Source: Gemmatimonadota bacterium (GTDB taxonomy: Bacteria; Gemmatimonadota; Gemmatimonadetes; Longimicrobiales; Gaopeijiaceae). From it: a DNA stretch of 32,379 nucleotides. The stretch covers positions 1 through 32,379 of the forward strand of contig JAJDVR010000137.1 in assembly GCA_022826025.1 (NCBI GenBank). Reading direction: 5' to 3'. The notes beneath the pieces are model-generated. The model did not search any database. It saw only the letters and a program-made list of their open reading frames with translations, and was not told the origin of the DNA. This document shows, one piece after another, positions 2,056-29,838 of this stretch. A program made the position numbers and the translations under genes. Positions within the stretch are counted from its first letter, which is position 1. Every line of letters starts with the position of its first letter.

Positions 2056-2157
2056 AGGACGGATGGACGGTCGGCACTAACGAGTGGACGGCATGAGAAT
2101 AACGATTGGACGGCCTGGAGATAACGATTGGACGGGCTTTCAATAACGATTGGACGC
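2056..2157. repeat. Array of 22-bp direct repeats (iteron-like) between tdk and the AAA ATPase
   Basis: Four copies of the 14-base core TAACGATTGGACGG occur at 2078-2091, 2100-2113, 2122-2135 and 2144-2157. The period is exactly 22 bases. The first copy has AGTGG in place of ATTGG and the last ends in C. The 8-base spacers differ in sequence. A degraded fifth copy, sharing TGGACGG, lies at 2056-2070. A period close to two helical turns places each site on one DNA face, as in operator arrays or replication iterons. The array sits between two divergent genes and runs into the start of the ATPase reading frame. No dyad symmetry is seen inside the unit. Confidence 0.85.
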
Positions 2158-4188: not shown

Positions 4189-4297
4189 CGGCAGTGATCC
4201 TCGTATGATCGGAGCTGTCGTAGTGCGCGGAGTTGCCGGCGAACCCGAGCGAGCCGGCGAACGCGCGCAGGTCTGGCGAACCCGACACCATACGTCA

Positions 4298-4315
4298 TGA
4301 CACCCGCAGGTGTCA
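4298..4315. promoter_or_regulatory. Perfect palindrome upstream of the Hsp70-like operon
   Basis: TGACACC (4298-4304), a 4-base centre CGCA and GGTGTCA (4309-4315) form a perfect 7+4+7 inverted repeat, 28 bases before the Hsp70-like start codon. It lies in the divergent intergenic region shared with the membrane protein gene. It could be a dimeric regulator operator, or a short RNA hairpin if transcription starts upstream. I could not place a convincing -35/-10 pair around it on either strand. It is not the CIRCE element of HrcA, whose arms are longer and of different sequence. Confidence 0.6.
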
Positions 4316-4343
4316 CTTCAAGGGACCGCCACTAGATTCATCC

Positions 4344-13072: not shown

Positions 13073-14416
13073 ATGTCAATCAAGCGGATCCTGGCGGTTG
13101 CGCTGGCAATCGCGATCTCGGATCCCCTGGGCCCGGCAGGCGCCACGGCCCAGGCGCCGACCCATGCGAACAACGGCGATCCAACGCTTGCCGCGCTCAT
13201 CGCGGAAGCACTGGAGGGCAACCCGCGCGTACGCGGAGCGTTTTCGGACGTGCAGGCCGCGCGCGCCCGCGTCCCTCAGGCCGCAGCCCTGCCGAATCCG
13301 ATGGTCGCCTTCACCCAGCACCTGCGGGGCCCCCAGACGAGGGTCGGGCCGCAAACGTCGGGCGTATCGCTCAGCCAGGCATTCCCCTGGTTCGGCACGC
13401 TTTCAGACCGAAGGGGCATCGCCGAGGCCGAGGCCGAGGGTCGCAGCGAGGCATATCGGGAACAGAGGGCCGAGGTCGTGCGGCAGGTCAAGCTGGCCTA
13501 CTACGACCTCGCGTACCTCGATGAAGCCCTCCGCATCACCGGTGAGGAGGAACAACTCCTCCTCCACTACGAGACCCTGGCCCAGGCCCGCTATTCGCAG
13601 GGCTTCGGGCAGCAGCAGGCGGTGCTCAAGCTTCAGGCGGAGGTGACGCGCGTCCTCAGCACGCGGCAAACGCTTCTTCAGCAGCGGATCGACTTCGAGG
13701 CGGCGCTCAACATCCTCGCGAATCGGCCGGTGGACGCCCCGATCCCGGTGATCGAGATCGGGGAGCCCCCGCTGGCGAGCGTTGACGATGAGCGGTTGCG
13801 GGCAGCCGGGATCGGCGCCAGGCCGGAAGTGAGATCGGCGCGGCTGCGGATCGAGAACAGCCAGCGGGCAGTGCGCCTGGCGCGTCGGCGGTATCGGCCG
13901 GACTTCTCAATCGGCGTCGCCTGGGGGAGCGTGCTCGACCGGCGCGACGATCCGGGCCGCAGCGATCCGCCGCCGGACAATGGGCGCGATACCTACAGCC
14001 TCACCCTGGGCGCGAGCATACCCGTCTTCAGGTCGAGCTACGACGCGGGCATGCGCGAAGCCGCCGCGAGTCTCACCGCGGCCGAGGAAGGGTACCGGGA
14101 CGCGGTAAACGAGGTGGCGCTCGCCGTCCGTTCGACTGCGTTCCGCCTGACCACCATCGAAGGTCAGCTGGCCCTCTTCGAACGCGCGCTGCTCCCCCAG
14201 GCGGAGCAGGCCCTGCGCGCCACCGAGGAGGCGTACTCGGCCGGCGTCACGGGCGTGCTGGAGTTGCTGGACAGCGAGTCCGTCCTGCTGGACGTCCGCC
14301 TCGGCCTCGCGCGCATGCGGGCCGACTACATGAAGACGCTGGCCGACATGGAACGAGCCATCGGCTCGCCCTTTCCGGAGGAGGGAGCATCGTCTCCGGA
14401 GGAGGAGGGATCATGA
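13073..14416 (+). CDS. TolC-family outer membrane efflux protein (CusC/CzcC-like)
   Basis: The 447-residue protein begins with a signal peptide (about residues 1-27, ending GATAQA). It shows the two-fold TolC pattern of long Ala/Gln/Arg-rich helices: NPRVRGAFSDVQAARARV, then LPNPMVAFTQ, and later ARPEVRSARLRIENSQRAV and the closing VTGVLELLDSESVLLDVRLGLARMRADYMKTLADMERAIG. Trimers of such proteins form the outer-membrane exit duct of RND pumps. GAGG stands 5 bases before the ATG. The stop overlaps the adaptor start as ATGA, so genes C, B and A form one operon. The substrate is inferred from the pump and adaptor to be a heavy metal. Confidence 0.92.
   Translation: MSIKRILAVALAIAISDPLGPAGATAQAPTHANNGDPTLAALIAEALEGNPRVRGAFSDVQAARARVPQAAALPNPMVAFTQHLRGPQTRVGPQTSGVSLSQAFPWFGTLSDRRGIAEAEAEGRSEAYREQRAEVVRQVKLAYYDLAYLDEALRITGEEEQLLLHYETLAQARYSQGFGQQQAVLKLQAEVTRVLSTRQTLLQQRIDFEAALNILANRPVDAPIPVIEIGEPPLASVDDERLRAAGIGARPEVRSARLRIENSQRAVRLARRRYRPDFSIGVAWGSVLDRRDDPGRSDPPPDNGRDTYSLTLGASIPVFRSSYDAGMREAAASLTAAEEGYRDAVNEVALAVRSTAFRLTTIEGQLALFERALLPQAEQALRATEEAYSAGVTGVLELLDSESVLLDVRLGLARMRADYMKTLADMERAIGSPFPEEGASSPEEEGS
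14395..14409 (+). promoter_or_regulatory. Strong ribosome binding site for the CusB-like gene within a tandem duplication
   Basis: GGAGGAGGAGGG at 14398-14409 ends 3 bases before the ATG at 14413 and offers several overlapping Shine-Dalgarno registers. It forms the second copy of an imperfect 21-base tandem duplication (14374-14394 and 14395-14415). The first 11 bases, TCCGGAGGAGG, are identical in both copies. The duplicated bases also encode the end of the outer membrane protein. This may raise adaptor translation relative to coupling alone. Confidence 0.55.
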
Positions 14417-15852
14417 GGAACACAAGGAGATTTCAGTTCGCGGCAATCGTGGCGCTGGGCGCGGTTGTGGGCGCGGGCGGGACGCTGCTGCTGCTGCGCA
14501 TCGTGCCGGGCGAGCCCATGGCCGGGGCACCGCCCGGAGCCGGAATGAGCGGCGACCACGCATCCCATGGAGAAGCCGGGGCGGGCGGTGCCGATGCGGC
14601 GATCGCCGGAGGCGCGGGTGAACGCAGGATCCTCTACTGGCGAGCGCCCATGGATCCGAACTACACGTCGGACCGCCCCGGCAAGTCGCCGATGGGGATG
14701 GATCTGGTTCCGGTCTACGAGGACGAAGGCCTCGCGGACGGCCAGGTCCGGGTGAGCCCCAGCTTCCTGCAGAACTTCGCCGTGCGCACGGCCGACGTGC
14801 AGCGCGGCTCGCTCCCCGTCTTCATCCGCACCGTCGGCATCCTGGCGCACAACGAGGAGCGGGTGGTCTCGGTCCAGACCAAGTACGCGGGCTGGATCGA
14901 GGAGGCGAGCGTCAACAACGTGGGCGAGACGGTCGAAAGGGGCGATGTGCTCTTCGAGATCTACAGCCCGGAGCTGGTCACCACCCAACGCGAGTTCACG
15001 GGGGCGATGGACTACCTCCAGCGCCTGCGGGACGGCGGGGCCTACGCGGAGGCGATCGAGCGCGCGCAGTCCCTCCTGGAGGCCACCCGCGAGCGCCTGC
15101 TCTACTGGGACATGACCGAGGCGCAGATCGACGCGCTCGCCGAATCGGGGACGGTCGCGCGCACGGTGCGGGTCTTTTCGCCCGCCACCGGCTTCATCGT
15201 CGAGAAGGTGGGCGATTCGATGGAGGGGTTGCGGATCGAACCCGGGATGACGGTCCTGAAGATCGCCGACCACTCCACGCTCTGGGCCGAGACCGAGTTC
15301 TACGAGGACGATCTGAGGCATGTGGCGGAAGGCGAGGCCGTCGAGATCGAGGCGGACGCGTTCCCGGGCCGGCAATGGGACGGGCGCATTCTCTTCTTTC
15401 GTCCCGCGGTGAATACGCAGACGCGGACGCTCACGGCGTTCGTGGAGGTGGCCAACGCCGATTTGCGGCTCAGGCCCGGGATGTACGTCGATGTGACGGC
15501 GCGGGGCGGGGGCGCGTCGGACGCCGTGATGGTGGCCGCCGAGGCGGTGCTTCACAGCGGAACGCGCGCCGTCGTGATCGTGGCCAGGGGCGGCGGCGTG
15601 TTCGAGCCGCGCGAGGTCCTGCTCGGAACCGAGAGCGAAGGGATGCAGGAGGTGACGTCCGGGCTGGTCCCCGGAGAGCAGGTCCTGGTTTCGTCCCAGT
15701 TCCTCATCGACGCCGACGCCAACCTCAAGGCCGCGATCTCGCAGCTGTTGAGCGGCGCGGAGTCCGGGGAGGAGCCCGGTATGGACGGGGCGATGCCGGG
15801 CGCGCACGAGATGATGCCCGGTGCGGCCTCCGGCAACCCGCCCGGCCGCTGA
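14413..15852 (+). CDS. RND efflux periplasmic adaptor (CusB-like) with heavy-metal-binding domain
   Basis: The 479-residue adaptor has a single N-terminal membrane or signal segment (about residues 8-29) and a Met/His-containing linker. A heavy-metal-binding domain lies at about 75-103 (YWRAPMDPNY, then PGKSPMGMDLVPVY). The CusB core follows: VQTKYAGWIEEASVNNVGETVERGDVLFEIYSPEL barrel-sandwich, a helical hairpin (about 190-245), FIVEKVGDSMEG, and the beta-barrel and membrane-proximal parts. The tail is Met/His-rich (DGAMPGAHEMMPG). The PMGMDLVP motif and Met-rich ends are typical of copper/silver adaptors, which pass metal to the pump. It is coupled by ATGA to the CusC-like gene and followed 13 bases later by the pump gene. 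Confidence 0.93.
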   Translation: MRNTRRFQFAAIVALGAVVGAGGTLLLLRIVPGEPMAGAPPGAGMSGDHASHGEAGAGGADAAIAGGAGERRILYWRAPMDPNYTSDRPGKSPMGMDLVPVYEDEGLADGQVRVSPSFLQNFAVRTADVQRGSLPVFIRTVGILAHNEERVVSVQTKYAGWIEEASVNNVGETVERGDVLFEIYSPELVTTQREFTGAMDYLQRLRDGGAYAEAIERAQSLLEATRERLLYWDMTEAQIDALAESGTVARTVRVFSPATGFIVEKVGDSMEGLRIEPGMTVLKIADHSTLWAETEFYEDDLRHVAEGEAVEIEADAFPGRQWDGRILFFRPAVNTQTRTLTAFVEVANADLRLRPGMYVDVTARGGGASDAVMVAAEAVLHSGTRAVVIVARGGGVFEPREVLLGTESEGMQEVTSGLVPGEQVLVSSQFLIDADANLKAAISQLLSGAESGEEPGMDGAMPGAHEMMPGAASGNPPGR

Positions 15853-15865
15853 GGGAGGCCCGCTC

Positions 15866-18800
15866 ATGTTCGCGCGCATCATCGACGGCTCCATCAGAAA
15901 CCGGCCCCTGATCCTCGTCGGCGCCCTGGCCGTCGTGGTGGCGGGCATCTTCTCTCTGGCCCGCACGCCAATCGACGCGATCCCCGACCTCTCCGATGTC
16001 CAGGTCATCATCCAGACGGAGTATCCGGGCCAGGCGCCGCGCATCGTGGAAGACCAGGTCACCTACCCGGTCGCTACCCAGATGCTGGCGGCGCCGTTCG
16101 CGCAGGTGGTGCGCGCGTACTCGTTCTTCGGAGTGTCGTTCGTGTACGTCATCTTCGAGGACGGAACCGACCTCTACTGGGCCAGAAGCCGGGTCCTGGA
16201 GTACCTGAACGCCCTTTCCGAGCAACTGCCGGCGGGCGTCACGCCCCGGCTCGGACCCGATGCCACCGGCGTCGGCTGGGCCTTCGTCTACGCGCTCCGG
16301 TCCGACCGCCACGACCTCGGGGAGCTGCGCGCGATCCAGGACTGGTTCCTCAGGTACGAGCTGACCGCGGTGCGCGGGGTCTCGGAGGTGGCCAGCGTGG
16401 GCGGCTTCGTGCGCCAGTACCAGATTACGGTCGACCCGAATCGCCTGCGCGCGTACGATCTGTCCATCTCCGCCATCCGCACCGCCATACAGGAGAGCAA
16501 CAGCGATGTCGGGGGCGGCCTCATCGAGGTCGCCGAGCGGGAATTCATGATCCGGGGACTCGGCTACATTCAGTCGGTGGACGACATTCGCCGAATCGGT
16601 CTCGGCGTGAGCGCGGACGGGACGCCGATCCTGCTGGAGGACGTCGCGCGCGTCAGCCTGGGGCCGGAGGGCCGCCGCGGACTCGCCGAGTGGAACGGGG
16701 AAGGGGAGACCGTCGGCGGCATCGTCGTGGTGCGGTCCGGCGCGGACACGCGGCAGGTGATCCGGGATGTGAAGGACAGGCTGGCGGAAATCACGCCGGG
16801 CCTGCCGGACGGCGTGGAGATCGAGGTGGCGTACGACCGCACCGGCCTGATCGACCGGGCGGTGGGAAGCATCCGCATGAGCCTCGCGCAGCAGCTCGTA
16901 ATCGTGGGCCTGGTGTGCCTCGTCTTCCTCTTTCACCTGCGCAGCGGACTGGTGGCCGTGATCGCGCTGCCCGTGGGAATCCTGATGGCCCTGATCGTGG
17001 TGCGGCTTCAGGGCCTCACGCTCAACATCATGTCCCTGGGCGGGATCGCGGTCGCGATCGGGACGATGGTCGACGCGGGGATCGTGATGGTCGAGAACGC
17101 CCACCGGCGCCTCGCCCAGGACGGTGGCCGAAGGCCGCACTGGGAGATTGTCGGCTCCGCTGCGCGTGAAGTGGGTCCGTCGCTGTTCCTGGCGCTGCTG
17201 GTGATCACGGTTTCGTTCATGCCGGTCTTCACCCTCGAAGCGCAGGAGGGGCGGCTGTTCAAGCCCCTTGCGTTCACCAAGACCTACGCGATGGCGGCGG
17301 CCGCGCTCCTGTCGGTGACGCTGGTTCCCGTTCTGGTGGGCTACTGGGTGCGAGGCAGGATTCGTCCGCCGACGCGCACCCCGGTGGGCCGGCTCCTGGC
17401 CCGGACGTATTGGCCGGTTCTGTCGCTGGCTCTGCGGTTTCGGACGTGGGTCCTGGCCGCTGCCGTGCTGGGGCTGGCGGCGACCGCCCTGCCGCTGTCG
17501 CGGCTGGGGTCGGAGTTCATGCCTCCGCTCTGGGAGGGCGACCTGCTTTACATGCCCACGACGCTCCCCGGGGTCTCGATCACCGAAGCGCGCGAGATCC
17601 TGCAGCAAACCGACCGGATCATCTACACCTTCCCCGAAGTCCAGCACGTCTTCGGCAAGGTCGGGCGGGCGGAAACGGCGACCGATCCCGCGCCCCTGTC
17701 CATGATCGAGACCACCATCGCCCTGAAGCCCCGCGACCAGTGGCGGTCCGGGATGACGCCCGAGCGCCTCATCGAGGAACTCGACGCCGCCCTGCAGATT
17801 CCAGGGCTGACCAACGCCTGGACCATGCCCATCCGGAGCCGGATCGACATGCTGTCAACCGGAATCCGCACGCCCGTCGGAGTCAAGATCGCCGGTCCCG
17901 ATCTGGCCGAGCTGGAGAGGCTGGGGCGCGAGATCGAGGGGGTGCTGCGGGACGTTCCCGGGACCGCCAGCGTGTACGCGGACCGCGTGATGGGCGGCAA
18001 CTACCTCGATTTCACCATCGATCGCGAGGCGATTGCCCGGCACGGACTCACGGTGAGAGACGTGCAGGAGGTGGTCCGGACGGCGATCGGCGGGATGAAC
18101 GTCACGACGACGGTGGAAGGTCTCACGCGTCATCCGGTCAACCTGCGCTACAGCCGGGAACTGCGGGACGATCTGCCCGCGCTGCGCGCCGTCCTGGTGA
18201 CGACCCCGCAGGGGCACCAGGTGCCGTTGGGACAGCTGGCGGGCATGGAGTACGTGGTCGGTCCCCCGAGCATCAAGAGCGAGGGGGCGAAGCCCAACGC
18301 CTGGGTGTACGTCGACCTGCGCGACGTGGACATGGGCGGATACGTGGAGTCCGCGCGTGAGGCGGTCGCGGCCGGGGTCGCGCTTCCGCCGGGATACACG
18401 ATCGCGTGGAGCGGGCAGTACGAGTACCTCGAGCGCGCCCAGCGGCGCCTCATGTACGTGGTTCCGATGACCCTCCTCCTGATCTTCGTCCTGATCTACC
18501 TGACCAACAGATCCGTGACGGAGACCTGCCTGGTGCTGCTGGGCGTTCCGTTTGCCGTCGCCGGCTCGTTCTGGCTGCTGCAGGTGCTCAACTACGACCT
18601 CTCCATCGCCGTCTGGATCGGGATCATCGCGCTGGCGGGCCTCTATGCCGAAACCGCGATCGTGTTTCTGCTCTATCTGAACCTCTCGCTCAACGACTAC
18701 CGCGACCGCGGCCTGCTGACCGATCGCGCGGCGCTTGCGCAGGCGATTCGGGCGGGATCCATCAAGCGGGTGCGCCCGATCATGATGACCATCGCAACCG

Positions 18801-18994
18801 ATGTGCTGGGGCTGATGCCGATCATGTGGAGCGCGGGCGCGGGAGCCGACGTCATGAAGCGGATCGCGGCGCCTCTGGTGGGAGGGGTCGTGACGTCGGG
18901 CGCCGTGGTGCTTCTGCTCTTCCCGGTGGTCTACTACCTGTGGAAGGCGCGCGGGCTGCCGGAGGGGTCGGGAGACAGCGCTGTCGCGGCCTGA
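15866..18994 (+). CDS. Heavy-metal RND efflux pump (CusA/CzcA family, CusA-like)
   Basis: The 1042-residue inner-membrane pump has the RND duplication, with a first helix (RPLILVGALAVVVAGIFSL) and large periplasmic loops. The TM4 motif is GTMVDAGIVMVENAH with D403 and E410, and the later acidic residue is E929 in LYAETAIVFLLY. Two CusA metal-site segments are visible, PLSMIETTIALKPRDQW (M613) and RIDMLSTGIRTPVG (M662), favouring Cu(I)/Ag(I). I recall a Lys in RVRPKAMT of E. coli CusA; here the segment reads RVRPIMMT. The ATG at 15866 has GAGGGAGG about 7 bases upstream; an upstream in-frame extension was not used. It acts with the preceding CusC- and CusB-like proteins as a proton-driven exporter. 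No terminator-like hairpin with a T-run follows. Confidence 0.94.
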   Translation: MFARIIDGSIRNRPLILVGALAVVVAGIFSLARTPIDAIPDLSDVQVIIQTEYPGQAPRIVEDQVTYPVATQMLAAPFAQVVRAYSFFGVSFVYVIFEDGTDLYWARSRVLEYLNALSEQLPAGVTPRLGPDATGVGWAFVYALRSDRHDLGELRAIQDWFLRYELTAVRGVSEVASVGGFVRQYQITVDPNRLRAYDLSISAIRTAIQESNSDVGGGLIEVAEREFMIRGLGYIQSVDDIRRIGLGVSADGTPILLEDVARVSLGPEGRRGLAEWNGEGETVGGIVVVRSGADTRQVIRDVKDRLAEITPGLPDGVEIEVAYDRTGLIDRAVGSIRMSLAQQLVIVGLVCLVFLFHLRSGLVAVIALPVGILMALIVVRLQGLTLNIMSLGGIAVAIGTMVDAGIVMVENAHRRLAQDGGRRPHWEIVGSAAREVGPSLFLALLVITVSFMPVFTLEAQEGRLFKPLAFTKTYAMAAAALLSVTLVPVLVGYWVRGRIRPPTRTPVGRLLARTYWPVLSLALRFRTWVLAAAVLGLAATALPLSRLGSEFMPPLWEGDLLYMPTTLPGVSITEAREILQQTDRIIYTFPEVQHVFGKVGRAETATDPAPLSMIETTIALKPRDQWRSGMTPERLIEELDAALQIPGLTNAWTMPIRSRIDMLSTGIRTPVGVKIAGPDLAELERLGREIEGVLRDVPGTASVYADRVMGGNYLDFTIDREAIARHGLTVRDVQEVVRTAIGGMNVTTTVEGLTRHPVNLRYSRELRDDLPALRAVLVTTPQGHQVPLGQLAGMEYVVGPPSIKSEGAKPNAWVYVDLRDVDMGGYVESAREAVAAGVALPPGYTIAWSGQYEYLERAQRRLMYVVPMTLLLIFVLIYLTNRSVTETCLVLLGVPFAVAGSFWLLQVLNYDLSIAVWIGIIALAGLYAETAIVFLLYLNLSLNDYRDRGLLTDRAALAQAIRAGSIKRVRPIMMTIATDVLGLMPIMWSAGAGADVMKRIAAPLVGGVVTSGAVVLLLFPVVYYLWKARGLPEGSGDSAVAA

Positions 18995-19127: not shown

Positions 19128-20426
19128 ATGGCCGCACGAGACACGAAAGGCGACGCCACGAGGCGGCTCTCGCGCGTCACGGGCTGGATCATTCTCCCGC
19201 TGACGCTCGCGGCGTGCGCGGATTCTGCGCCGGCGGACTCGGAGTCCGGCACGATGGTGATCACGGGGATGGAGCAGACGGCCACGGGGACGGAGCAGAC
19301 GGCTGTCCCCGGCGCCGAGGCGGGCGGGGCAACGGAGCAACCGGCGGAAGCGGGCACGGAACTCGCTGCAGGCCCCGGAGCCGAAGCAGACGCGGCGGCT
19401 GGCGCTCAGCCCCAGGCGGGTGCCGAGCAGCAGGCTATCCCAACCCAGGCGACCCTCGACTCGCTCGCTGTCCAACTGAGTGATATCACTGCGGCACAGC
19501 AGTTGATACTATCGCGCCTGGACGCGATGGAGCAGGACGGCGCAGCGGTTGTGGCCCAGGGCGACACCGCCGGCGCGGCCCTCGACCTGGACGAGGCGAC
19601 CGAGGAAGTCCGGAGTCTCGGGGTGGGCATCTTCTGGTCGCTGGTCATCATCGTCGTCTTTCATTTCCTGATCCGGGCGCTGGCATGGATCCTCGAGACG
19701 CTGGCCGAACGGAGCGTCAGGCGCCGCCTCACATTCAAGTGGCTCATCCCCATCACGCGCATGGCGCTGTGGGGGATCGCGGCCTATCTGATCCTGCGCA
19801 CCGTCTTCCGGGTGGACGCGCAGGGGCTTCTCGCCGCGAGCGCCGCGCTGGGCCTGGCGCTCGGCATCGCGGCGCAGGACCTGCTCAAGAACGTGTTCGG
19901 GGGCCTGATCGTCGTCTTCGACCAGCCCTTCCAGGTGGGCGACAAGATCTCGGTCGGGGGGACCTACGGGGAGGTCGTGTCGATCGGGCTGCGGTCGACG
20001 CGCATCGTGACCGCCGACGACAACCTGGTGACCGTGCCCAACTCCCAGGTCGTGGAGGAGCAGGTCGCCAACGCCAACGCCGGGCAGTTGAACTGCCAGG
20101 TCGTGACCGATCTCTACCTGCCCGGCCGCGTGGACGAACGCGGAGCCAGGGAGATCGCCTTCGAGGCCGCGGTCACCTCCCAGTACGTCTTCCTGAACAA
20201 ACCCATCGTTGTGCTGGTGGGAGACGAGTTCCGCACCACCTTCGTCACGCGCGTGAGGGTGAAGGCCTACGTGCTGGATCCCCGCTTCGAGTTTCTGATG
20301 CAGAGCGACATCACCGAACGCGCCCGCGACGGTTTCCGCGCCGCGGGGCTCATGCCGGAACGCGACTGGTATCCGATGGTCGAACCCCCGGAGGCATCCG
20401 CCCCTGGTGAGTCGAGTGCGCGATGA
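19128..20426 (+). CDS. MscS-family mechanosensitive channel with lipoprotein-type N-terminus
   Basis: The 432-residue protein starts with a signal ending in a lipobox LAAC (C30) after a hydrophobic stretch WIILPLTLAAC. A low-complexity Ala/Glu/Gly/Thr/Pro segment follows (about 31-105), then a coiled-coil-like part (about 108-160). The MscS part comes last: two helices (about 165-188 and 203-228) and the pore helix LLAASAALGLALGIAAQDLLKN with its small-residue pattern. The beta-domain motif is DQPFQVGDKISVGGTYGEVVSIGLRSTRI, then VPNSQVVEE and the alpha/beta C-domain. The channel core would release solutes under membrane tension. A lipidated, disordered N-terminal arm on MscS is unusual. It overlaps the following 1045-residue gene as ATGA, implying a joint function. 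The 133-base gap upstream contains GATAAT at 19083-19088, without a convincing -35 box. Confidence 0.88.
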   Translation: MAARDTKGDATRRLSRVTGWIILPLTLAACADSAPADSESGTMVITGMEQTATGTEQTAVPGAEAGGATEQPAEAGTELAAGPGAEADAAAGAQPQAGAEQQAIPTQATLDSLAVQLSDITAAQQLILSRLDAMEQDGAAVVAQGDTAGAALDLDEATEEVRSLGVGIFWSLVIIVVFHFLIRALAWILETLAERSVRRRLTFKWLIPITRMALWGIAAYLILRTVFRVDAQGLLAASAALGLALGIAAQDLLKNVFGGLIVVFDQPFQVGDKISVGGTYGEVVSIGLRSTRIVTADDNLVTVPNSQVVEEQVANANAGQLNCQVVTDLYLPGRVDERGAREIAFEAAVTSQYVFLNKPIVVLVGDEFRTTFVTRVRVKAYVLDPRFEFLMQSDITERARDGFRAAGLMPERDWYPMVEPPEASAPGESSAR

Positions 20427-23400
20427 GTGACGCCGCGCCCCGCATGGCCGGCGCCGCGCCGGGCGCATCCGGCGACTCCGACATCGTCGCCCGTATCTCC
20501 GCCGCGGTGCACGAGCCCTTCGCGGAGGTCTGGCGGCGCTACGAGGCGGACGTGTGGCTGCCCATCCGCCGTGTGCTGGTGGAGGCTGGTGTCGCGCACA
20601 GGCGGGCACTCGCCGCATTGGCCCGGCAGGGACCGGAGGATGCGAATGCCGGAGGTGGAGAGCGGGAAGCATCCGAAGCCCTGGCGCGGTATCGCGAGCT
20701 GGTCTCGGATGATGTAATCGAGCCCCTGCGGGTCGCCCTGGCCAGGCGCGCCTCGGCCACCGCGCTGGAGGAATCTCTCGCTTCGACCGCGGATCGCACG
20801 CGGGCGTCGCTGGTGGCACTGCCAGTCATGCTGGAGGCGCCGGCTCCCCGGTCGCCCGCCGCGCGCGTCTCCGGGGTCGGTACCATCCGCGCCATCAAGC
20901 GAGCCGCCGCGCGCGTGCTCGGTCCGGTGGTTTCGCGGGGCCGGGTGCGCCGCGTCGCGGTGGCCCGGCTGGCCCGGCAGCACCTCGACCAGGTGGTCCT
21001 TCGTGCTCAGGCGACCGCCTTCCGCCGGAGCCAGCACGACCGGGGCGAATGGCTCGGGCGCCTCGAGCGCGCCTGGGCCGACTGGGCGACCGCCGTGTTG
21101 CAGCCGGCCGTCCCGGCCGATGAGTTCCCGCCGCCCTTCGAGCCTGCCTCGGAGGAGGAACGGCGGCATGACGCCGAGACCCACCGCGCCGCCGGAGCGG
21201 CCCTGCAGGCCGAGCTGCAGGCGCTCGTCGACGAGGTCGAAAGGGCTGCCGGGAGCGCCTGGAGCGTCGACTTCGAGCAGCTGGAGGAGGCCCTGGCCGC
21301 CTCGGTGGCGGTAGCCGGCACCTTCGCGGCCGATCCGCCATCCAGTCGGCCGGGCCCCGGACGCCAGCGGGAGCTGGCCGTGCAATGGGATGCCTGGGTG
21401 GAGGGAGCGGCGGCCCGGCTGGAGTTGTACCGGGGTCTGGTATCGATGCGCCGTGACATCGAAGGGATTCTCGGCGAACTGCGTGGAGACTGGTCGCGTA
21501 CCGTTCGCAAAGCCGATGCGGCGCTGGCCGAAGTCGCGGCCGAACTGGGCCGAAGCAGGGAGCGGGCCGCGGGTTTGTCAACCGGCGATGAGGACCTGGT
21601 ATCGACTCTGGAGGCGGAGCGGCAACGCACCGATACGGCGCTTGAGCAGCTCCAGGGCGTGCTGCCGGAGCCCGACGCAATGTTCGAGATGCTGACTGCC
21701 ACGGTAGAGGAGGCGATCCACGGTCTGGACGAGGTTCGGGAGCGGATGCCCGGGGCCCTGGCGCTTCACGACATTCCGGCGCCCGGAGATGCCCCGGGAA
21801 AACCGACAGCGGACCCCCGCACCGTGCGTCTGCGCGAGACCTTCCTCCACGGGTTCGATCTCCTGCGCCGCGAACGCATGCGGGCCGCGCCTTCGGCAAT
21901 CCGCGAAGCCATGCATCGGATTCGCTCGGAGGTCGCCGAACTCCGGGAGGTGTCGGGATACGGCTACGAGGCCGCGATCGCGGAGGCGAAGGATCGGCGC
22001 GATCCCGACGCGCCACATCCCACCGTGCTGGTTGTCAACGGCCTTACCCGCGCCGGCAACAAGGCCGCGGATGCGCGCGAGCTGGTGCGCGCGGCCCAGT
22101 CGGCGGCGGAGCGCAGGGTCGCTGCCGAGCTCGGCAGCGGTTCGCGGCAACTGATCGAACAGGCGACCGCGGACCGGATGACGGCGGGCTATCTCGAGGC
22201 GCGCACGGTTCTGTCGGCCGGGCTCGCGCGTGCATGGAAGCGGATGCGGCGGCTGTCGGCCCAGGCCGCTGCCGCCACCGCGGCGGCCGTGTCATGGGCT
22301 CTGGGGTTGCTGCGGCCGCTCAGCGCGAGGATGGGCCTCGGTCCATCCGGCCGGGCCGTCGCCGATCGCCGCGAGGACAACCTCGCGTACACGGACGAGT
22401 ACCCGCCCGCGCTCCCGGTCGTATACAGGCGACTCTTCTCGCTCGAGCCGCTCGCTGATGGCCGGTTGCTGGCGGGACGGGAAGACGCCCTGGCCGCGGT
22501 GGAGGTGGCCTGGGGCCGACGAACGACCGGGGAGCCGAGGTCCCTGGTCGTCATCGCATCGCCCGGCGCGGGCGTGACCAGTTTTCTGAACGTCGTGGCA
22601 AACCGCCTCTCCGAAGAAGCCTCGGGTGGTGTGCGGCGGACGTTCGCCACGCGTGTCCGGGCGGAAGCATCTCTCGCGGAGTGCCTGGCCGGATGGCTGG
22701 GCCTCGAGGAAGCGGGCGATCTCGACTCCCTCGCGGAGCGTGCCCTGAAGGCGCCGCCCAGGTCGATTCCCGGCTTCGTCATCCTGGAGGCGACGGAACA
22801 TCTTCACATGCGCACGCCCGCGGGGAGCAGGCTGTTCGAGCGGCTGCTGACCTTCATGTCGCGCACCGAATCGAGGGTATTCTGGATCACGGCCATGACT
22901 TCGTCGGCGTGGCAACTGATCCAGAAGCGCGCGCCGGCCTTCGTGCACGACATCGAGCGGGTGCATCTGGGAGCACTGTCGCCCGAAGAGCTGAAGCAGG
23001 CCGTGCTGGCCCGGCACCGGCTGAGCGGTCTTCCCCTGCGCTTCGCCGAACCACATGACGGACGAGCGGCGCTGCGGCGCCGGACACGCCGGTTGCGGGG
23101 CGCGGAGAAGCAGGAACAACTCGTCGAGGCGGACTATTTCCAGCGCCTGCACCGCGCCTCTCAGGGGTCGGTTCGCCTGGCGCTCTTCCACTGGTTGCGG
23201 ACGGCCGACTTCACCTCGACCCCGGGCAGCCTCCTCGTGCAACCGCTGAGCACGCTGGATTCGGGAATCGAGCACCTGGACCGGACCCGGAGCTTCGCCC
23301 TCAAGGCCATCCTCGACCACGGAACCCTGACCATAGACGAGTACTGTGATGTCGCGCGGACCGCGGGCCCCGAGAGCCTGCACATCCTCCGGTCACTGGA

Positions 23401-23560
23401 GGAGTGCCGCGTGATCGAGAGGGTGGAGGACGCGGCCGGGGAGGAGCCGGCCGCTGAGCAAGCGGCATGGAACAGCGCCGCCCGGTCCCGCTATCGCGTC
23501 CGCCCGCTCATGATCGGCCCGGTTTCGGCCCATCTCCGGTCAAGCAATATCCTGCACTGA
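20423..23560 (+). CDS. 1045-aa helical protein with degenerate AAA/STAND-like module and winged-helix-like tail
   Basis: I do not recognise this protein as a named family. Residues 1-600 or so are almost wholly helical, with Glu/Arg/Ala heptad-like stretches. One short hydrophobic segment lies at about 613-630 (AAAATAAAVSWALGLL). From about 675 the layout is AAA_16-like: LLAGREDALAAVEVAW, a P-loop position reading SPGAGVTS (713-720) without the essential Lys, and FVILEATEHL (785-794) at Walker B with Glu but no Asp-Glu pair. VFWITAMTSSAW follows at the sensor-1 position, then LSPEELKQAVLARH, and a terminal wH-like region (FALKAILDHGTLTIDEYCDVA). It is therefore probably an ATP-binding-defective scaffold or sensor. 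It is coupled by ATGA to the MscS-type channel, and its 3' end overlaps the convergent HNH gene by 21 bases. Confidence 0.75.
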   Translation: MSDAAPRMAGAAPGASGDSDIVARISAAVHEPFAEVWRRYEADVWLPIRRVLVEAGVAHRRALAALARQGPEDANAGGGEREASEALARYRELVSDDVIEPLRVALARRASATALEESLASTADRTRASLVALPVMLEAPAPRSPAARVSGVGTIRAIKRAAARVLGPVVSRGRVRRVAVARLARQHLDQVVLRAQATAFRRSQHDRGEWLGRLERAWADWATAVLQPAVPADEFPPPFEPASEEERRHDAETHRAAGAALQAELQALVDEVERAAGSAWSVDFEQLEEALAASVAVAGTFAADPPSSRPGPGRQRELAVQWDAWVEGAAARLELYRGLVSMRRDIEGILGELRGDWSRTVRKADAALAEVAAELGRSRERAAGLSTGDEDLVSTLEAERQRTDTALEQLQGVLPEPDAMFEMLTATVEEAIHGLDEVRERMPGALALHDIPAPGDAPGKPTADPRTVRLRETFLHGFDLLRRERMRAAPSAIREAMHRIRSEVAELREVSGYGYEAAIAEAKDRRDPDAPHPTVLVVNGLTRAGNKAADARELVRAAQSAAERRVAAELGSGSRQLIEQATADRMTAGYLEARTVLSAGLARAWKRMRRLSAQAAAATAAAVSWALGLLRPLSARMGLGPSGRAVADRREDNLAYTDEYPPALPVVYRRLFSLEPLADGRLLAGREDALAAVEVAWGRRTTGEPRSLVVIASPGAGVTSFLNVVANRLSEEASGGVRRTFATRVRAEASLAECLAGWLGLEEAGDLDSLAERALKAPPRSIPGFVILEATEHLHMRTPAGSRLFERLLTFMSRTESRVFWITAMTSSAWQLIQKRAPAFVHDIERVHLGALSPEELKQAVLARHRLSGLPLRFAEPHDGRAALRRRTRRLRGAEKQEQLVEADYFQRLHRASQGSVRLALFHWLRTADFTSTPGSLLVQPLSTLDSGIEHLDRTRSFALKAILDHGTLTIDEYCDVARTAGPESLHILRSLEECRVIERVEDAAGEEPAAEQAAWNSAARSRYRVRPLMIGPVSAHLRSSNILH

Positions 23561-25021
23561 TGTGACGTCCTGGATGGCACCTGTCTCTCCTCCTTCGCCC
23601 AAGCCCTCCTCTTTCTCCCTCCAGAGGCACAACATCGCATAGCCCCAGTCGATGCGTTCGCCCGTCCACAGCGAGTCGCCGGTCCAGGCGTCGATGCCGT
23701 CCTGGCCGTGCCAGCGGCCCAGACCGAAGTCCTGCGCGGCGGGCGCCGAGGGGTCGCCGGGCACCAGGCCGCCGATGTCCGGGGAGGCGGGCACCACGGG
23801 CCGCCGAACGCCCAGGGGGTTGAGGAACCGCAGGGCTCCCGACCCGTCCATCTCCACCCGCCAGCCCCCTTCGTGGACCGCGCGGTGGTGGAAGGGACAC
23901 AGGAGCACGAGGTTGTTCATCCCGGTCTCTCCACCCTCGGCCCATGGCGTGATGTGATGGGCGTGGGTGCGCGCGCGCGACTCGCATCCCGGGAAGCGGC
24001 ACCCGCCGTCGCGGGCCTCGAGCGCCTTGCGCAGCCTCCAGCCCACCGTCCTCCTGCGGCGCCCGACATCGAGCACCGAGCCGTCGGCTGCCCGCGCGAT
24101 GGGCACGACCCCGGCATCGCATGCGAGCCGGGCAGACGTTTCAGCTGAAACGCTCGAGCCCTCCTCGGTGACCAGAGGGGCTGGCACTTCCTGCTCGTGC
24201 TCCGCCGGCTTCCGATGCTCCTCTCCTTTGAACGAGTGGACCACGAGCTGCACCCGAGGCTGCACGCGCTCCTCGAGCCACAGCCCCAGCGCGTCGGCCC
24301 GGCGCTGTACCGCCGTCGTCTGGTGCTCGGTCCCGGCGCTGCGCTCGGCGCGGTAGAGCCGGGCTTCCGCCATCTCGAGCGCCTTGAGGAGCAGGGCGCC
24401 CACCTCGGGGCTGAGCCGGCCCCGCACTTCGTAGCTGCCGTCGTCGGTGACCCACACCGAGAGGCCGCGGCGCTCCGCCCGAGCTGCCTCGGAGGCGTCG
24501 CCCCGGTCCAGGCGGCGCCAATGCCGGACCATGCGTTCCACGTGCGCGGTGGTGCCGTGGCGCGCGAAGTCGAGAAGCTCGGCCTCGTTTTCCGGGTTGG
24601 CGATGCGGGTCAGGGCCCGCACCTTCGAGTACGAGATCTCTCCCCTGGCGAAGGCTTCGGGGATCAGGGCCAGGGAGGGCAGAGCCCGGGCCACGCGCAC
24701 CTTCTCGCGGGCGGGACCGAGGGAGATGCCCGTGCGCCAGGAGAGCCAGTGAGCGCAGGAGCGGAATCCCTGCCAGCGTTCCTCGGCGTCGTAGACCTTC
24801 AGCAGGCAGAGGAGCCGGTAGGTGGCGGCCGTGATGTGGGCGCAGAGAAGGGCGATCTCGTCGCCGAGGGGATCGATGTCGGGGTTGAGCCCTGTGGAGA
24901 TGGGCCTGACCGAAGCGGGCGCGGTTGGGACGAGCCCGCTCGTGGAGGGCTGGCCCGAGGTGGGAGGAGTGGGCGAAGGAGGAACCGGGGCAGGCGCGAC
25001 TGGAGCGGCGGCGGTGGACAT
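23540..25021 (-). CDS. DUF222 / HNH endonuclease domain protein (13E12 repeat type)
   Basis: The 493-residue protein has a Pro/Ala/Ser-rich N-terminus (about 1-45), then a DUF222-type helical domain (RTGISLGPAREKVRVARAL, GEISYSKVRALTRIA, VERMVRHWRRLD). An HNH nuclease domain lies at about residues 340-388: CRFPGC, then HAHHITPWAEGGET, NNLVLLCPFHHRAVHEGGW. The Cys pair and the His/Asn/His set of the beta-beta-alpha metal fold are all present, so nuclease activity is plausible. Such 13E12-family proteins occur in many copies in some actinobacterial and Gemmatimonadota genomes and may behave as mobile or selfish genes; their role is unproven. The ATG at 25021 is the first start after an in-frame TGA. 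A near-perfect Shine-Dalgarno-like AGGGAGGTGA lies 42 bases upstream (25073-25064) with no start at usable spacing. Confidence 0.9.
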   Translation of the reverse strand: MSTAAAPVAPAPVPPSPTPPTSGQPSTSGLVPTAPASVRPISTGLNPDIDPLGDEIALLCAHITAATYRLLCLLKVYDAEERWQGFRSCAHWLSWRTGISLGPAREKVRVARALPSLALIPEAFARGEISYSKVRALTRIANPENEAELLDFARHGTTAHVERMVRHWRRLDRGDASEAARAERRGLSVWVTDDGSYEVRGRLSPEVGALLLKALEMAEARLYRAERSAGTEHQTTAVQRRADALGLWLEERVQPRVQLVVHSFKGEEHRKPAEHEQEVPAPLVTEEGSSVSAETSARLACDAGVVPIARAADGSVLDVGRRRRTVGWRLRKALEARDGGCRFPGCESRARTHAHHITPWAEGGETGMNNLVLLCPFHHRAVHEGGWRVEMDGSGALRFLNPLGVRRPVVPASPDIGGLVPGDPSAPAAQDFGLGRWHGQDGIDAWTGDSLWTGERIDWGYAMLCLWREKEEGLGEGGETGAIQDVTSVQDIA

Positions 25022-25166: not shown

Positions 25167-28100
25167 TCAGCGCGCCTCGTTCCCGAATCGGCCGTACCGC
25201 AGGAACAGCGCGGGAATGACGAACATGTTGAGGAAGGTCGATGTGATCAGGCCGCCGAGCACCACCACCGCGAGAGGAGCCTGAATCTCCCGCCCGGGCT
25301 CGCCGATGCCGAGCGCCAGCGGAATCAGCGCCAGGCCCGTGGTGAGCGCGGTCATCACGATCGGGCTCAGGCGCTCCGTCGACCCTCGCCGGATGGCGCC
25401 CGAGAGCGGAAACCCTTGCGCGCAGAGGTGCTGGTAACGGCTCACCAGCAGGATCCCGTTGCGCACTGCGATGCCGAACAGGGTGATGAAGCCGACAAGG
25501 GTGGCGACGTTGATGGTGCCGCCGATGAGCATCACCGTGGCGACACCGCCCGCGAGCGCCAGCGGCAGATTGGCCATGAGCATCACCGCCGTGCGGACGT
25601 TGCCGAAGGCCCGCAGCAGCACCAGAAAGATCGCCGCGATGGAGAAGAACGAGAGAACGGTGATGCTCCGGGTGGCCGCCTGTCCGCTCTCGAACTGTCC
25701 GCCGTACTGAAGGGAGTATCCCTGCGGCAGCGCCACGTCAGCCGCGACCCTCTCCTGCAGCTCCGTCACCGCGCCAACCACGTCGCGGCCGGCCACGTTG
25801 GCGCTGATCGCGATCTTTCTCTGGACGTTTTCGCGGCTGATGGTGTTGGGCCCCCGGGCCGGCACGATGGCTGCGAGCTGTGAGAGCGGAACGGTGGCGC
25901 CCGCCGGCGTCGACACGAGGGTGCTGCCGATGGCATCCGCGTCCGCGCGGTGCTCGTCGGCGTAGCGCACCACCAGGTCGAAGGCGCGCTGGCCCTCCCG
26001 GATCAGCGAGACCTCCTCTCCCTGGAACGCCACGTCCACTGCGGCCGTCAGCGAGCCCGGGGTGACGCCGTAGCGGGCCATGGCGCGGCGGTCGGCGCGG
26101 ACCTGGAGTTGAGGCACGTCCGCCTGCCGTTCGACGGCGATGTCCACCAGCCCGGGGACCTGGCCGGCGACGGTCTCGATCTGCGCCGCGATGTCGCGCA
26201 GGGGTTGGAGATCCGGCCCGAACAGGTTCACCGCGATGGCGGCGCGTGTCCCGGAGAGCATGTGGTCGATGCGGTGGCCGATGGGCTGACCCACCGTGAT
26301 GCTGGTGCCCGGAAACCCGGTCAGGTCGGCGCGCAGCTCCGCCAGGACGTCGTCCAGGTCGTGGTCGGCCAGGTCGAGGCGCGCGTCGATCTCGGAGGCG
26401 TTGGAGCCCTGTGCGTGCTCGTCCAGATCCGCCCGCCCGGTCCGCCGCGAGGTGGAAACCACCGCGGGATGGTCCAGCAGGCGCCGTTCCACCCGTGCCC
26501 CGATCGCGTCCGACTCGGCCAGCGAGGTGCCTGGAAGGCTGACCACCGAGATGGTCAGCGAGCCTTCCCGGAACGGGGGCAGGAACTCGCCCCCCAGCGA
26601 GGGAATCAGGGCCAGGGTGCCCAGCAGCAGCACACCCGCCCCCGCCACCACCACACCCGAGCGGCGCAGGGTCCGCTCCAGCAGGCTGCCGTAGACGCGC
26701 TGCACCCTGCGCAGCAGCCAGGGTTCCTGCTTCCTCGCCAGCGTGCGATCGCCGGACAGGAGCAGGGAACAGAGCACCGGGGTCACGGTGACCGCCACCA
26801 GCAGGGAGGCCAGGATGGCCACGATGTAGGCCTGGCCGAGCGGGCGCAGCATGCGGCCCTCCACCCCGGACAGGAAGAAGAGCGGCACGAACACGACCGT
26901 AATGATGATGGTCGCGTTGACGATGGGATCGCGCATTTCGCGCGCGGCGCCCCGGATCAGCGGCACCGTCGCCTGCCGCATGTTCTCTGGCTGCTGCCGG
27001 TTCTCGCGCAGCCTCCGGTAGGCGTTCTCCACGAAGATGATGGCGTCGTCGACGAGGGCGCCGATGGCGATCGCCATCCCCCCCAGGGTCATCGTGTTGA
27101 TCGTGCCCCCGAGCAGGAGCAGGGCGATGACGGCCAGCGCGAGCGACAGGGGAATCGCCAGAACGGAGATGACGGTCGTGCGCAGGTTCCAGAGGAAGAG
27201 AAACAGGATGACGACGACGAGCACCGCCCCGTCGCGGAGCGCCTCGACCACGTTTTCCACCGCAAGCGAGATGAAGTCGGCCTGGCGGAAGATGGCCCGC
27301 GCGAACGAGACGCCCGCGGGAAGCTCGGCTTCGATGGCATCCAGTTCGGCGTCCACGCGCTCCGTGAGTTCCAGCGTGTTGGCGCCCGGCTGCTTCTGAA
27401 TCGAGAGGATGACGGCCGGCTCGGCATTCACCGCGGCCGTCCCGAAGCGAATCTTCGGGCCGATGCGCACGTCGGCGACATCTTCGATCAGCACCGGCAC
27501 GCCGTCGCGCACCGCGACGACCGTGAGGCCGATCTCCTCCAGACCGCGCGCGCGTCCGAGACCCCGGATCAGGACTTCCCGGCCTCCGGAGCGGTAGACT
27601 CCGCCCGACACGTTGCGGTTCGATGCGGCGGCGGCGGCGAGAATCTCGTCGAGCGCGATTCCGTACGCCCGCATCCGGCCGGGGTCGACCAGAATCTGGT
27701 ACTGGCGTACTTCGCCCCCTATGGGAATCACCTGCGACACGCCCGGCACGGCCAGCAGCCGGCGCCGCACCGTCCAGTCCGCGGCCGTGCGGGCTTCCAT
27801 GAGCTGCGCTTCCGGCGCGGTCATGCCGACCAGCAGGATCTCGCCCATGATCGAGCTGACCGGGGCCAGAACGGGAGCCGTCACGTCGTCGGGGAGCTGC
27901 GCGACCGCGAGCTGGAGTCGCTCGTTCACGATCTGGCGCGCGCGGAACAGGTCCGTGCCCCAGTCGAAGTCCACCCAGACGATGCTGATGCCCTGCGCCG
28001 AACTGGACCGCACCCGGCGTACGCCCGGGGCTCCGTTGACGGCGGTCTCGAGGGGGAAGGTCACCAGGCTCTCGACCTCTTCGGGCGCCAGGCCGTGGGC

Positions 28101-28292
28101 GTCCGTGAGCACCGTGACGGTGGGAGCGGTGAGATCCGGAAAGACATCGACGGGGAGGGTCGCCGCAACCCATCCCCCACCGGCGAGCGCAATCGCCGCG
28201 GCGCCGACGGTGAGCAGCCGGTGGCGGAGCGAAGCGCCGACCACCGCGTCGAGGATGCCGGTCCGCTTCCACTCGGTGGGCGTCGAGGCCAT
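25167..28292 (-). CDS. Heavy-metal-type RND efflux pump (CzcA/CusA family), second system
   Basis: The 1041-residue pump shows the RND repeat: a first helix (LLTVGAAAIALAGGGWVAATLPVDVFPDL), DWTVRRRLLAVPGVSQVIPIGGE, and the TM4-type motif GALVDDAIIFVENAYRRL at about residues 408-425. LFFLSGVEGRMLRPLG and FGIAVRNGILLVSRYQHL follow later. It lacks the MIETT and DMLSTG methionine segments of the first pump, so its metal is likely different (divalent ions such as Zn, Co or Ni are usual for CzcA-like members). The ATG at 28292 is chosen because family similarity begins there and the adaptor stop is only 13 bases upstream. A longer open frame to 29054 overlaps the adaptor gene and is an artefact. 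It is the last gene of a leftward C-B-A operon. Confidence 0.92.
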   Translation of the reverse strand: MASTPTEWKRTGILDAVVGASLRHRLLTVGAAAIALAGGGWVAATLPVDVFPDLTAPTVTVLTDAHGLAPEEVESLVTFPLETAVNGAPGVRRVRSSSAQGISIVWVDFDWGTDLFRARQIVNERLQLAVAQLPDDVTAPVLAPVSSIMGEILLVGMTAPEAQLMEARTAADWTVRRRLLAVPGVSQVIPIGGEVRQYQILVDPGRMRAYGIALDEILAAAAASNRNVSGGVYRSGGREVLIRGLGRARGLEEIGLTVVAVRDGVPVLIEDVADVRIGPKIRFGTAAVNAEPAVILSIQKQPGANTLELTERVDAELDAIEAELPAGVSFARAIFRQADFISLAVENVVEALRDGAVLVVVILFLFLWNLRTTVISVLAIPLSLALAVIALLLLGGTINTMTLGGMAIAIGALVDDAIIFVENAYRRLRENRQQPENMRQATVPLIRGAAREMRDPIVNATIIITVVFVPLFFLSGVEGRMLRPLGQAYIVAILASLLVAVTVTPVLCSLLLSGDRTLARKQEPWLLRRVQRVYGSLLERTLRRSGVVVAGAGVLLLGTLALIPSLGGEFLPPFREGSLTISVVSLPGTSLAESDAIGARVERRLLDHPAVVSTSRRTGRADLDEHAQGSNASEIDARLDLADHDLDDVLAELRADLTGFPGTSITVGQPIGHRIDHMLSGTRAAIAVNLFGPDLQPLRDIAAQIETVAGQVPGLVDIAVERQADVPQLQVRADRRAMARYGVTPGSLTAAVDVAFQGEEVSLIREGQRAFDLVVRYADEHRADADAIGSTLVSTPAGATVPLSQLAAIVPARGPNTISRENVQRKIAISANVAGRDVVGAVTELQERVAADVALPQGYSLQYGGQFESGQAATRSITVLSFFSIAAIFLVLLRAFGNVRTAVMLMANLPLALAGGVATVMLIGGTINVATLVGFITLFGIAVRNGILLVSRYQHLCAQGFPLSGAIRRGSTERLSPIVMTALTTGLALIPLALGIGEPGREIQAPLAVVVLGGLITSTFLNMFVIPALFLRYGRFGNEAR

Positions 28293-28305
28293 CAGCCGGT
28301 ATCCG

Positions 28306-29838
28306 TCAGTGGGTGTGCCCGTGGTCGGCGAGGTCGGCTTCGCCCAGCGACGCGAGGAACACCTGGTAGGCGCCGGCTGTGACCACCTTCTCGCCGACCG
28401 CCACGCCGGTGACGAGGGTCCAGGTGCCGTCGGAGGGGCCCGCCTCGACCACCCGTCGCTGGAAGCTCTCCCCGCCGACTTCGACGTAGACGACCCCGAG
28501 CCCGTCCTCGTCCTGGATCGCGGCGGACGGGACGGCGACGCCTGTGACCGGCTCTCCCGTGAACAGCCGTCCCTCGGCCAGCATGCCCACCTTGAGCCGG
28601 CCGTCCGGGTTGGCGATGGCGAAGCGCAGCGGCAGGGTGCGGGTATCGGGGTCGATGACGGTGCCGGCGGAGACCACCCGGTCGGTGGTGTAGGTCGCGT
28701 CCGCCCCCTCGACCGTGAACCAGGCCTCCCGCACTCCTCCCGCCCCCGCGGCCTCCCGTGCCGGCAGCCGGGCGATGAACCAGAGGGTCGCCGGATCGAC
28801 GACCGTGAAGGCATGTGCGCCCGCCTCCACCTGTTCCCCGGGGGCGACATGGCGCTCCGAGAGGACCCCGCCGATGGGGCTCCGCAGCGCATAGAGGTGT
28901 GCGGCCTCATCGCCCTCAGGCGCCTGGATCCCGCCCACGGCCGCGAAGGCCGCGCGCGCCACCTCCAGTTCGTGCCGCGCCTCCAGCAGGCGGCGTTCCG
29001 GGATGGCCTCGGCGGCGAACAGCCGCTCCGCGCGCGCCGCCTCACGCTCGGCATGCGCCACCCGCACCTGCATGCGCGCGAAGGAATCGTCCAGGCTGGT
29101 GGGCGCGATCAGCGCGAGCGTCTGCCCCGCGGCGACCGCATCCCCGGGGGCGGGCGTGGGGCCCTGCACCACCACCAGCCCGGTGACCGGCACGGAGACG
29201 TGCGCGAGGCCGTCGGCGGGCGCGACGACCTCACCCGCCGCCGGAATCGAACGGGGGATGCTGCGCTCCTCCGCGGCCGTCACGCCGAAGGGCATCACCC
29301 ACTGCTGCTCCTTCAGCAGCGTGATCAGGCCCGGGGACGCGACGTCCTCTTCCGGGACCAGGGCGTCGACGCTCTCGAAGACCTCCAGTTCGCCCACCGG
29401 GACCGGGTACTCCCGGCCAGCGACCGAGAGCGTGAAATCGGCGCGCCACATTCCCGCCACCGGCAGCACCGGGGCTGTCGTAAAGACGCCCGACCGGGCG
29501 GGCGAGGGCATCACGATCTCCTCGCGCGCCCCACCCGGCCCTTCCAGCGCCAGCGTCAGGCTGCCTTCCTCGACAGGCGACCAGTCCGCGAGCCAGGTGA
29601 GGTGGATCGCCCACACGTCGCCCTCCAGCCCGCGAACGTGCGGCGGATACTCGACGAAGAGCTCGAGGACGTCGGTCCAGTGGGTAACGACCGCACCCCC
29701 GGCAAAGGCCTGATCGGGCTCCGGCGGAAGATCGTCCGCGGCTGGACCGCAGCCGATGCACATGAGCCCGGCGACGATCCCGGACATCGGTGCAATGGCC
29801 GACCGTCCCACCGGCGCCGCTTCGACTCCCCTCATCAT
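28306..29838 (-). CDS. RND efflux periplasmic adaptor with extra N-terminal domain and His-rich C-terminus
   Basis: The 510-residue adaptor has a hydrophobic export signal (about residues 13-30) with a possible but imperfect lipobox (CIGC). About 110 residues that are not part of the usual adaptor follow: THWTDVLELFVEYPPHVRG, then a beta-sandwich-like stretch ending YPVPVGELEVF, similar in layout to FixH/YtkA-like domains. The HlyD/CusB core then follows: AAGEVVAPADGLAHVSVPVTG, a helical hairpin (ARMQVRVAHAEREAARAERLF), LRSPIGGVLSERHVAPGEQVEAG, and the barrel. The chain ends DHGHTH, a likely metal ligand cluster. The ATG at 29838 overlaps the outer-membrane gene's stop as ATGA; a second ATG is adjacent at 29835. 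It links outer membrane factor and pump. Confidence 0.9.
   Translation of the reverse strand: MMRGVEAAPVGRSAIAPMSGIVAGLMCIGCGPAADDLPPEPDQAFAGGAVVTHWTDVLELFVEYPPHVRGLEGDVWAIHLTWLADWSPVEEGSLTLALEGPGGAREEIVMPSPARSGVFTTAPVLPVAGMWRADFTLSVAGREYPVPVGELEVFESVDALVPEEDVASPGLITLLKEQQWVMPFGVTAAEERSIPRSIPAAGEVVAPADGLAHVSVPVTGLVVVQGPTPAPGDAVAAGQTLALIAPTSLDDSFARMQVRVAHAEREAARAERLFAAEAIPERRLLEARHELEVARAAFAAVGGIQAPEGDEAAHLYALRSPIGGVLSERHVAPGEQVEAGAHAFTVVDPATLWFIARLPAREAAGAGGVREAWFTVEGADATYTTDRVVSAGTVIDPDTRTLPLRFAIANPDGRLKVGMLAEGRLFTGEPVTGVAVPSAAIQDEDGLGVVYVEVGGESFQRRVVEAGPSDGTWTLVTGVAVGEKVVTAGAYQVFLASLGEADLADHGHTH

Follow-up and report, generated by a model that had tools for sequence, protein, structure and literature searches.

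An MscS-type channel gene with a predicted lipoprotein signal and an overlapping gene for a degenerate AAA-like protein: a candidate undescribed two-gene system

The window, that is the whole stretch of 32,379 nt analysed here (contig C197 of a 3.9-Mb MAG), contains two overlapping genes, one for a channel of the MscS family and one for a large AAA-like protein (Table 1). An earlier note, made from this DNA alone, had put them forward as a candidate undescribed system. This proposal is upheld, as the MscS gene and the gene of the degenerate AAA protein form a conserved two-gene unit for which no described counterpart was found. The channel apparently represents an MscS subfamily that is new, and in the one phylum searched it was never seen without its partner, which is itself undescribed. 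Regarding function, the preferred reading is an osmotic or envelope MscS channel that is scaffolded or gated by a cytoplasmic subunit of its own; in the main lineage, this subunit would act independently of ATP hydrolysis. The reading is given an even chance of being correct.

Table 1. Features of the channel gene and of its partner gene in the window
Feature	Position	Strand	Basis and remarks
MscS-family channel gene	19128..20426	+	432 aa; Pfam MS_channel_2nd; subfamily met only alongside the large AAA-like protein
Predicted lipoprotein signal with hydrophobic stretch and LAAC lipobox	19167..19217	+	Sequence; Cys30 codon 19215-19217
Putative exported arm, residues 31-152	19218..19583	+	AF2: disordered 45-104, predicted helix 107-143
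Three predicted membrane helices, within residues 154-260	19587..19907	+	AF2 helices
Predicted cytoplasmic cage: beta domain 251-317, alpha/beta domain ~321-408	19878..20351	+	Pfam
ATGA start-stop overlap	20423..20426	+	Exact 4-nt overlap
Large AAA-like protein, predicted cytoplasmic	20423..23560	+	1045 aa, without a recognisable membrane helix
Helical N-terminal region, residues 18-651	20474..22375	+	AF2, mostly pLDDT 80-95 to residue 580
Predicted ORC/Cdc6-type AAA+ module, residues 662-948	22406..23266	+	VIA, Foldseek on predicted model
Degenerate Walker A, residues 712-720, ASPGAGVTS	22556..22582	+	Lysine position is Val718
Winged-helix-like tail, residues 950-1045	23270..23557	+	AF2 secondary structure

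Among 116 genomes of the family to which the window belongs, the large protein was detected in 43, and a 44th (G012) was added by profile. The MscS ortholog, defined by a single-sequence search with E<=1e-25, is present in 40 family genomes, each of which has the whole large protein or part of it adjoining on the same contig. Four genomes (G053, G077, G078, and G110) contain the large protein without this MscS; in these, it starts about 100 bases or less from a contig end. All 11 sampled genomes of the window's genus carry the pair. The window genome (G000) harbors three MscS genes in total, and the other genomes compared have between zero and nine. With only three such genes in the window genome and a pair kept in 40 family genomes, chance adjacency was ruled out, and adjacency wherever the contig allows it is more than chance would give. 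The other MscS genes of pair-bearing family genomes are far more distant in sequence than the paired channel. Flanking gene content varies by genus: the window's genus has an operon for metal efflux upstream of the pair, and other genes are present in g25 and elsewhere. The adjacency of the pair is retained though these genes change, and no other neighbour is kept.

Profile searches for the large protein were run on 395 genomes from the phylum and on 394 from the class, mainly MAGs of this one phylum. Relatives were found in three other families of the class, f7 (genera g81 and g121), f4 (three genera, 3 of 102 genomes), and f2 (one of 12 genomes). All nine relatives outside the window's family have an adjoining MscS gene, one of the contigs being probably misbinned. 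This contig of G154 (JAAXHJ010000047.1, 6687 bases, L098/L038), filed under Candidatus Palauibacter poriticola, carries the pair of the window's genus, and misbinning is indicated by the same size and scores as L038. Full-length relatives outside the class were not detected by profile among the 395 phylum genomes, and a scan of genome contigs yielded close relatives only.

The junction of the two genes in the window is exactly as described earlier, the channel gene overlapping the gene of the 1045-residue protein by ATGA. Of 36 loci, 30 show an exact 4-nt overlap (ATGA or GTGA); the overlap is 8-14 nt long in five, and a short gap separates the genes in the remaining one. Among alternative starts, the one closest to the stop was chosen. 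The overlap suggests translational coupling. The earlier note had regarded adjacency conserved in unrelated lineages as support for a system, and had named a large protein mostly found without an MscS neighbour and an overlap missing from close relatives as arguments against it. Neither of the latter was encountered. Pairing was conserved in the window's family and in the relatives elsewhere, the only four exceptions being at contig ends, and the exact overlap is retained in most loci.

In two loci, L105 (f2) and L106 (f7), the order is reversed, with the AAA gene preceding the MscS gene, but here too the two are in contact or overlapping (junctions TGATG and TTGA). The possibility that these loci use a different MscS was rejected, since the channels from loci of either order group in a single clade (16/16, support 0.80, midpoint rooted) from which all other tested MscS are excluded. 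Genus g81 of family f7 is placed inside the g1/g25 group of f1 in the MscS tree as well as in the AAA tree, which suggests that the pair moved together; the deciding nodes are weak (0.31-0.90). The large protein shows 25-30% identity where the channel keeps 45-60%.

A second MscS-family gene, belonging to other MscS branches, lies no more than about 5 kb away from the pair in seven of about 50 loci from several lineages (L042:6492-7526; L043:3876-4796 and 927-1802; L049:2957-4381; L051:2088-2957; L053:3425-4297; L100:8188-9306; L104:5991-6905). Two of these loci, L049 and L104, have it 10-14 nt behind the AAA gene on the same strand, resulting in the arrangement MscS-AAA-MscS. Considering about five MscS genes per 3.5 Mb, a second one near the pair looks more than chance.

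The window channel matches MS_channel_2nd with E=7.8e-22 and 77.6 bits (Pfam cut-off 20.2), and it has the beta domain and the TM3 pore helix with a hydrophobic gate that are characteristic of the MscS channel family. The gate residues of the pore helix, L and I, align to residues L105/L109 of E. coli MscS in a phmmer alignment, and the alpha/beta domain of the channel model matches MscS 7raz over 97 residues with an rmsd of 3.1. When compared with the NCBIfam equivalogs for MscS, MscK, and MscM, the channel stayed under every cut-off, the best score being 60 bits versus 500. Upstream of the gene, no promoter- or terminator-like site was recognised by consensus, which says little in this phylum. 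MscS proteins are oriented with the N-terminus outside and the cage inside the cell. Therefore, the lipid arm should be periplasmic and the large protein could meet only the cage side. Channel activity, membrane topology, and lipidation are what we infer from the families concerned.

The N-terminus of the channel reads MAARDTKGDATRRLSRVTGWIILPLTLAAC, with Cys30 inside the lipobox and Ala as the next residue. A signal with a lipobox Cys near the N-terminus is the feature of bacterial lipoproteins, and lipidation is predicted. By a simple rule demanding a basic and a hydrophobic part and a Cys, such signals were detected in 40 of 44 channel homologues encoded upstream of the AAA gene. Those of L049 and L069 were recognised by eye, raising the number to about 42, and the two members of genus g32 are the only channels of this order without lipobox. 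The reversed-order channels of L105 and L106 do not have a lipobox arm. The reading of an MscS-type gene starting with a lipobox (LAAC, C30) is thus confirmed by the Pfam match and the sequence, and the signal is conserved. The long disordered arm described earlier was also recovered, with pLDDT values below 50 at residues 45-104 of the AF2 model. Across homologues, 71-172 residues, mostly 110-150, separate the Cys from the first membrane helix, and the arm sequence is not conserved; a length that is kept while the sequence is free is what a tether would show. In the homologue sequences listed, Asp does not occur after the Cys. According to the Lol rule of E. coli, a residue other than Asp after the Cys directs a lipoprotein to the outer membrane. 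If this rule applies here, the outer membrane would be the destination of the lipid.

For the large protein, an AF2 model with a mean pLDDT of 80.8 was obtained, and no hydrophobic stretch stood out as a membrane helix. Searches with its sequence in NCBIfam and PADLOC gave no match, Pfam gave none above the cut-off, and PDB none that was meaningful. The helical N-terminal region had no significant hits in Pfam, NCBIfam, or PADLOC either, and its PDB profile matches (E 0.001-1) were discarded as reflecting helical-bundle composition only. Foldseek and VIA placed ORC/Cdc6 and TnsC, and also MuB, among the best folds for the C-terminal part of the predicted model, with Z scores of 13-16 over 220-290 residues at 10-17% sequence identity; the match to 7jgr_G has a VIA Z of 16.0 and an rmsd of 3.5 A over 248 residues. 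The ORC/TnsC matches leave the N-terminal 650 residues uncovered, and some of the ORC matches extend into the winged-helix-like tail. An AAA+ fold followed by a C-terminal winged helix, as in ORC/Cdc6, is accordingly seen in the predicted model, the winged helix being taken from AF2 secondary structure, but the Walker A lysine of this type is replaced by V718. AAA_16 (PF13191) is matched at residues 683-816 with E=2.2e-4 and 22.2 bits, under the gathering cut-off of 32.6. Weak AAA_16 matches are found in 23 of 36 members, the distant relative from L105 passes the cut-off (36.7 vs 32.6 bits), and the large proteins of L105 and L106 show weak nSTAND matches. The models agree with the earlier description of a 1045-residue helical protein with an AAA_16-like C-terminal module and a winged-helix-like tail. 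Within the tail, N1042 is near-invariant and H1045 is usual among homologues. A stand-alone ORF of 107-122 aa with 81% identity to residues 932-1045, the winged-helix tail, is located 5 kb downstream of a full large-protein gene at L032:16331-16669 (G075:C60:49552-49893).

Calling the AAA module degenerate was also right. In 41 of 46 homologues, the residue in place of the Walker A lysine is V, I, L, T, H, or A; three from family f4 have R, and K is present in two, the reversed-order loci L105 and L106 (GSGKT). The first acid of Walker B is E in 36 and D in ten homologues, and the second position is mostly non-acidic. From these 46 sequences, it appears that the ancestor of the large protein probably had a working ATP site that was lost in the main lineage. 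With the lysine gone, switching by ATP hydrolysis is unlikely there. The earlier comparison with AAA/STAND switches is therefore weakened for the main lineage, in which the lysine is lost throughout.

According to the preferred reading, the two gene products would constitute one membrane machine. The channel would be an inner-membrane, tension-gated channel of the MscS type with its N-terminus exported and lipidated at Cys30, and the flexible arm of about 120 residues would tie it to the envelope, either to the outer membrane or to the outer leaflet of the inner membrane. The partner, predicted to be a long rod or bundle of helices that carries an ORC/Cdc6-type AAA+ module and a winged helix at its end, would be made beside the nascent channel, dock on its cytoplasmic cage, and set its opening and closing, gating or scaffolding the channel under osmotic or envelope stress. 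ATP hydrolysis would play no part in this in the main lineage because the Walker A lysine is gone, and the less common lineages with reversed order and GSGKT may have kept a nucleotide switch. Docking, the control of gating, and the membrane holding the lipid are conjectural parts of this scheme. Exclusive pairing, adjacency amid changing flanks, a touching or overlapping junction in both orders, a single clade of channels, and the suggested joint movement of the genes support a channel-partner unit, as do the aligned gate residues, the partner's lack of a membrane helix, the conserved lipobox and arm length, and the lost Walker A lysine; the fast divergence of the partner and the two g32 members without lipobox count against it. 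The idea of the cage as a conserved docking surface was not supported: when paired and unpaired MscS of matching beta-domain identity are compared, their alpha/beta domains are equally conserved (0.63 vs 0.62; 0.65 vs 0.65). The domain is not unusually conserved, so that no docking surface is apparent.

The winged-helix tail could instead point to a role at DNA. The large protein would then be a co-expressed DNA-binding or nucleoid-organising AAA/winged-helix factor of an envelope-stress or osmotic operon, coupled to the channel by expression only and without contact. DNA-binding proteins, ORC/Cdc6, TnsC, and MuB, are indeed among the best folds, and the AAA module is basic (net charge +7), but the tail is acidic overall (-3), and a partner strictly tied to one MscS subfamily, whichever gene comes first and with no further neighbour retained, exceeds ordinary sharing of a regulon. 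This explanation is considered unlikely. Less probable still is an assembly, targeting, or membrane-shaping factor, chaperone-like in its action on the channel and not a gating subunit. The gene overlap would favor co-translational capture by such a factor, and the long helical N-terminus and the lost ATPase residues are in line with it; against it, other MscS channels are not known to require a helper.

The neighbours of the pair are housekeeping genes for efflux pumps, aconitase, MTHFR, glutathione synthetase, and HSP20. Two tripartite RND efflux operons, one CusCBA-like for heavy metals and one AcrB-type, flank it at 13073-18994 (+) and 25167-31085 (-). A DUF222/HNH endonuclease gene (23540-25021, -), found at this place only in the window's genus, is convergent with the AAA-like gene and overlaps its 3' end by 21 nt. 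Farther away, an AAA_14/DUF4143 protein is encoded at 2106-3446 (+), about 16 kb from the pair, and matches the PADLOC candidate model PDC-S01 at 1e-154. A 567-aa frame at 4233-5936 (+) specifies an HSP70-domain protein with a weak MreB match.

A membrane-permeabilising defence role had been envisaged in the earlier note, which proposed looking for defence genes among the conserved neighbours; this role is not supported. Anti-phage abortive infection, with a STAND-like large protein opening the channel and killing the infected cell, is very improbable: AAA_16/STAND-type sequence similarity (the weak nSTAND matches of L105/L106) and scattered presence outside the window's family speak for it, but PADLOC found no match for the pair (P0001, P0002) or the reversed-order channel and only a short one of Walker A length in L106, searches of PHROGs, plasmids, phages, and IMG/VR were empty for the window pair with no relatives on plasmids, phages, or viral contigs, the pair is constant in its genus, the neighbours are housekeeping genes, and the P-loop is dead in the main lineage.

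Returning to the channel with a gating or scaffolding partner, a more specific picture can be proposed tentatively, with clearly less confidence than the reading itself. One lipidated, disordered tether per subunit might join envelope lipids to a cytoplasmic ORC-like pseudo-AAA+ ring or rod, control being independent of ATP here and switched by ATP in sister lineages, which would be a mode of MscS control undescribed so far. A full-text search of the open-access literature, weak evidence by its scope, revealed no paper dealing with a lipobox-bearing MscS or with an AAA partner of MscS, and 'mechanosensitive channel', 'MscS', and 'lipobox' did not occur together in one open-access paper. MscS channels are usually regarded as stand-alone valves opened by lipid tension. 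If the proposal is true, a subfamily never met without one large cytoplasmic partner, and bearing a lipid tether as well, would mean that some bacteria control an MscS valve from inside the cell. The Walker A variants make up a natural series, from GSGKT with reversed order over GRT to G[VI]T with a lipidated channel. The series would document how an AAA+ protein gave up its ATPase site but kept its partner, and the purpose of the ATPase thereby becomes testable.

Compared with known systems, the large protein shares with AAA_16/STAND NTPases (PF13191, nSTAND) a weak AAA_16 match, above the cut-off in L105; unlike in these, the main-lineage P-loop is dead, and no effector or repeat-sensor domain was recognised. 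With ORC/Cdc6 and TnsC/MuB it has the AAA+ core in common, and with ORC/Cdc6 also the winged helix, but it differs from them by the helical N-terminus of 650 residues and the replaced Walker A lysine, and it is paired with a channel, whereas they are found with replication or transposition genes. The channel has the three-helix core, the pore helix with a hydrophobic gate, the beta domain, and the alpha/beta cage of E. coli MscS, YnaI, MscK, and MscM. Unlike known MscS channels, it carries a lipobox and a putative exported arm of about 120 residues and has a dedicated, overlapping partner gene.
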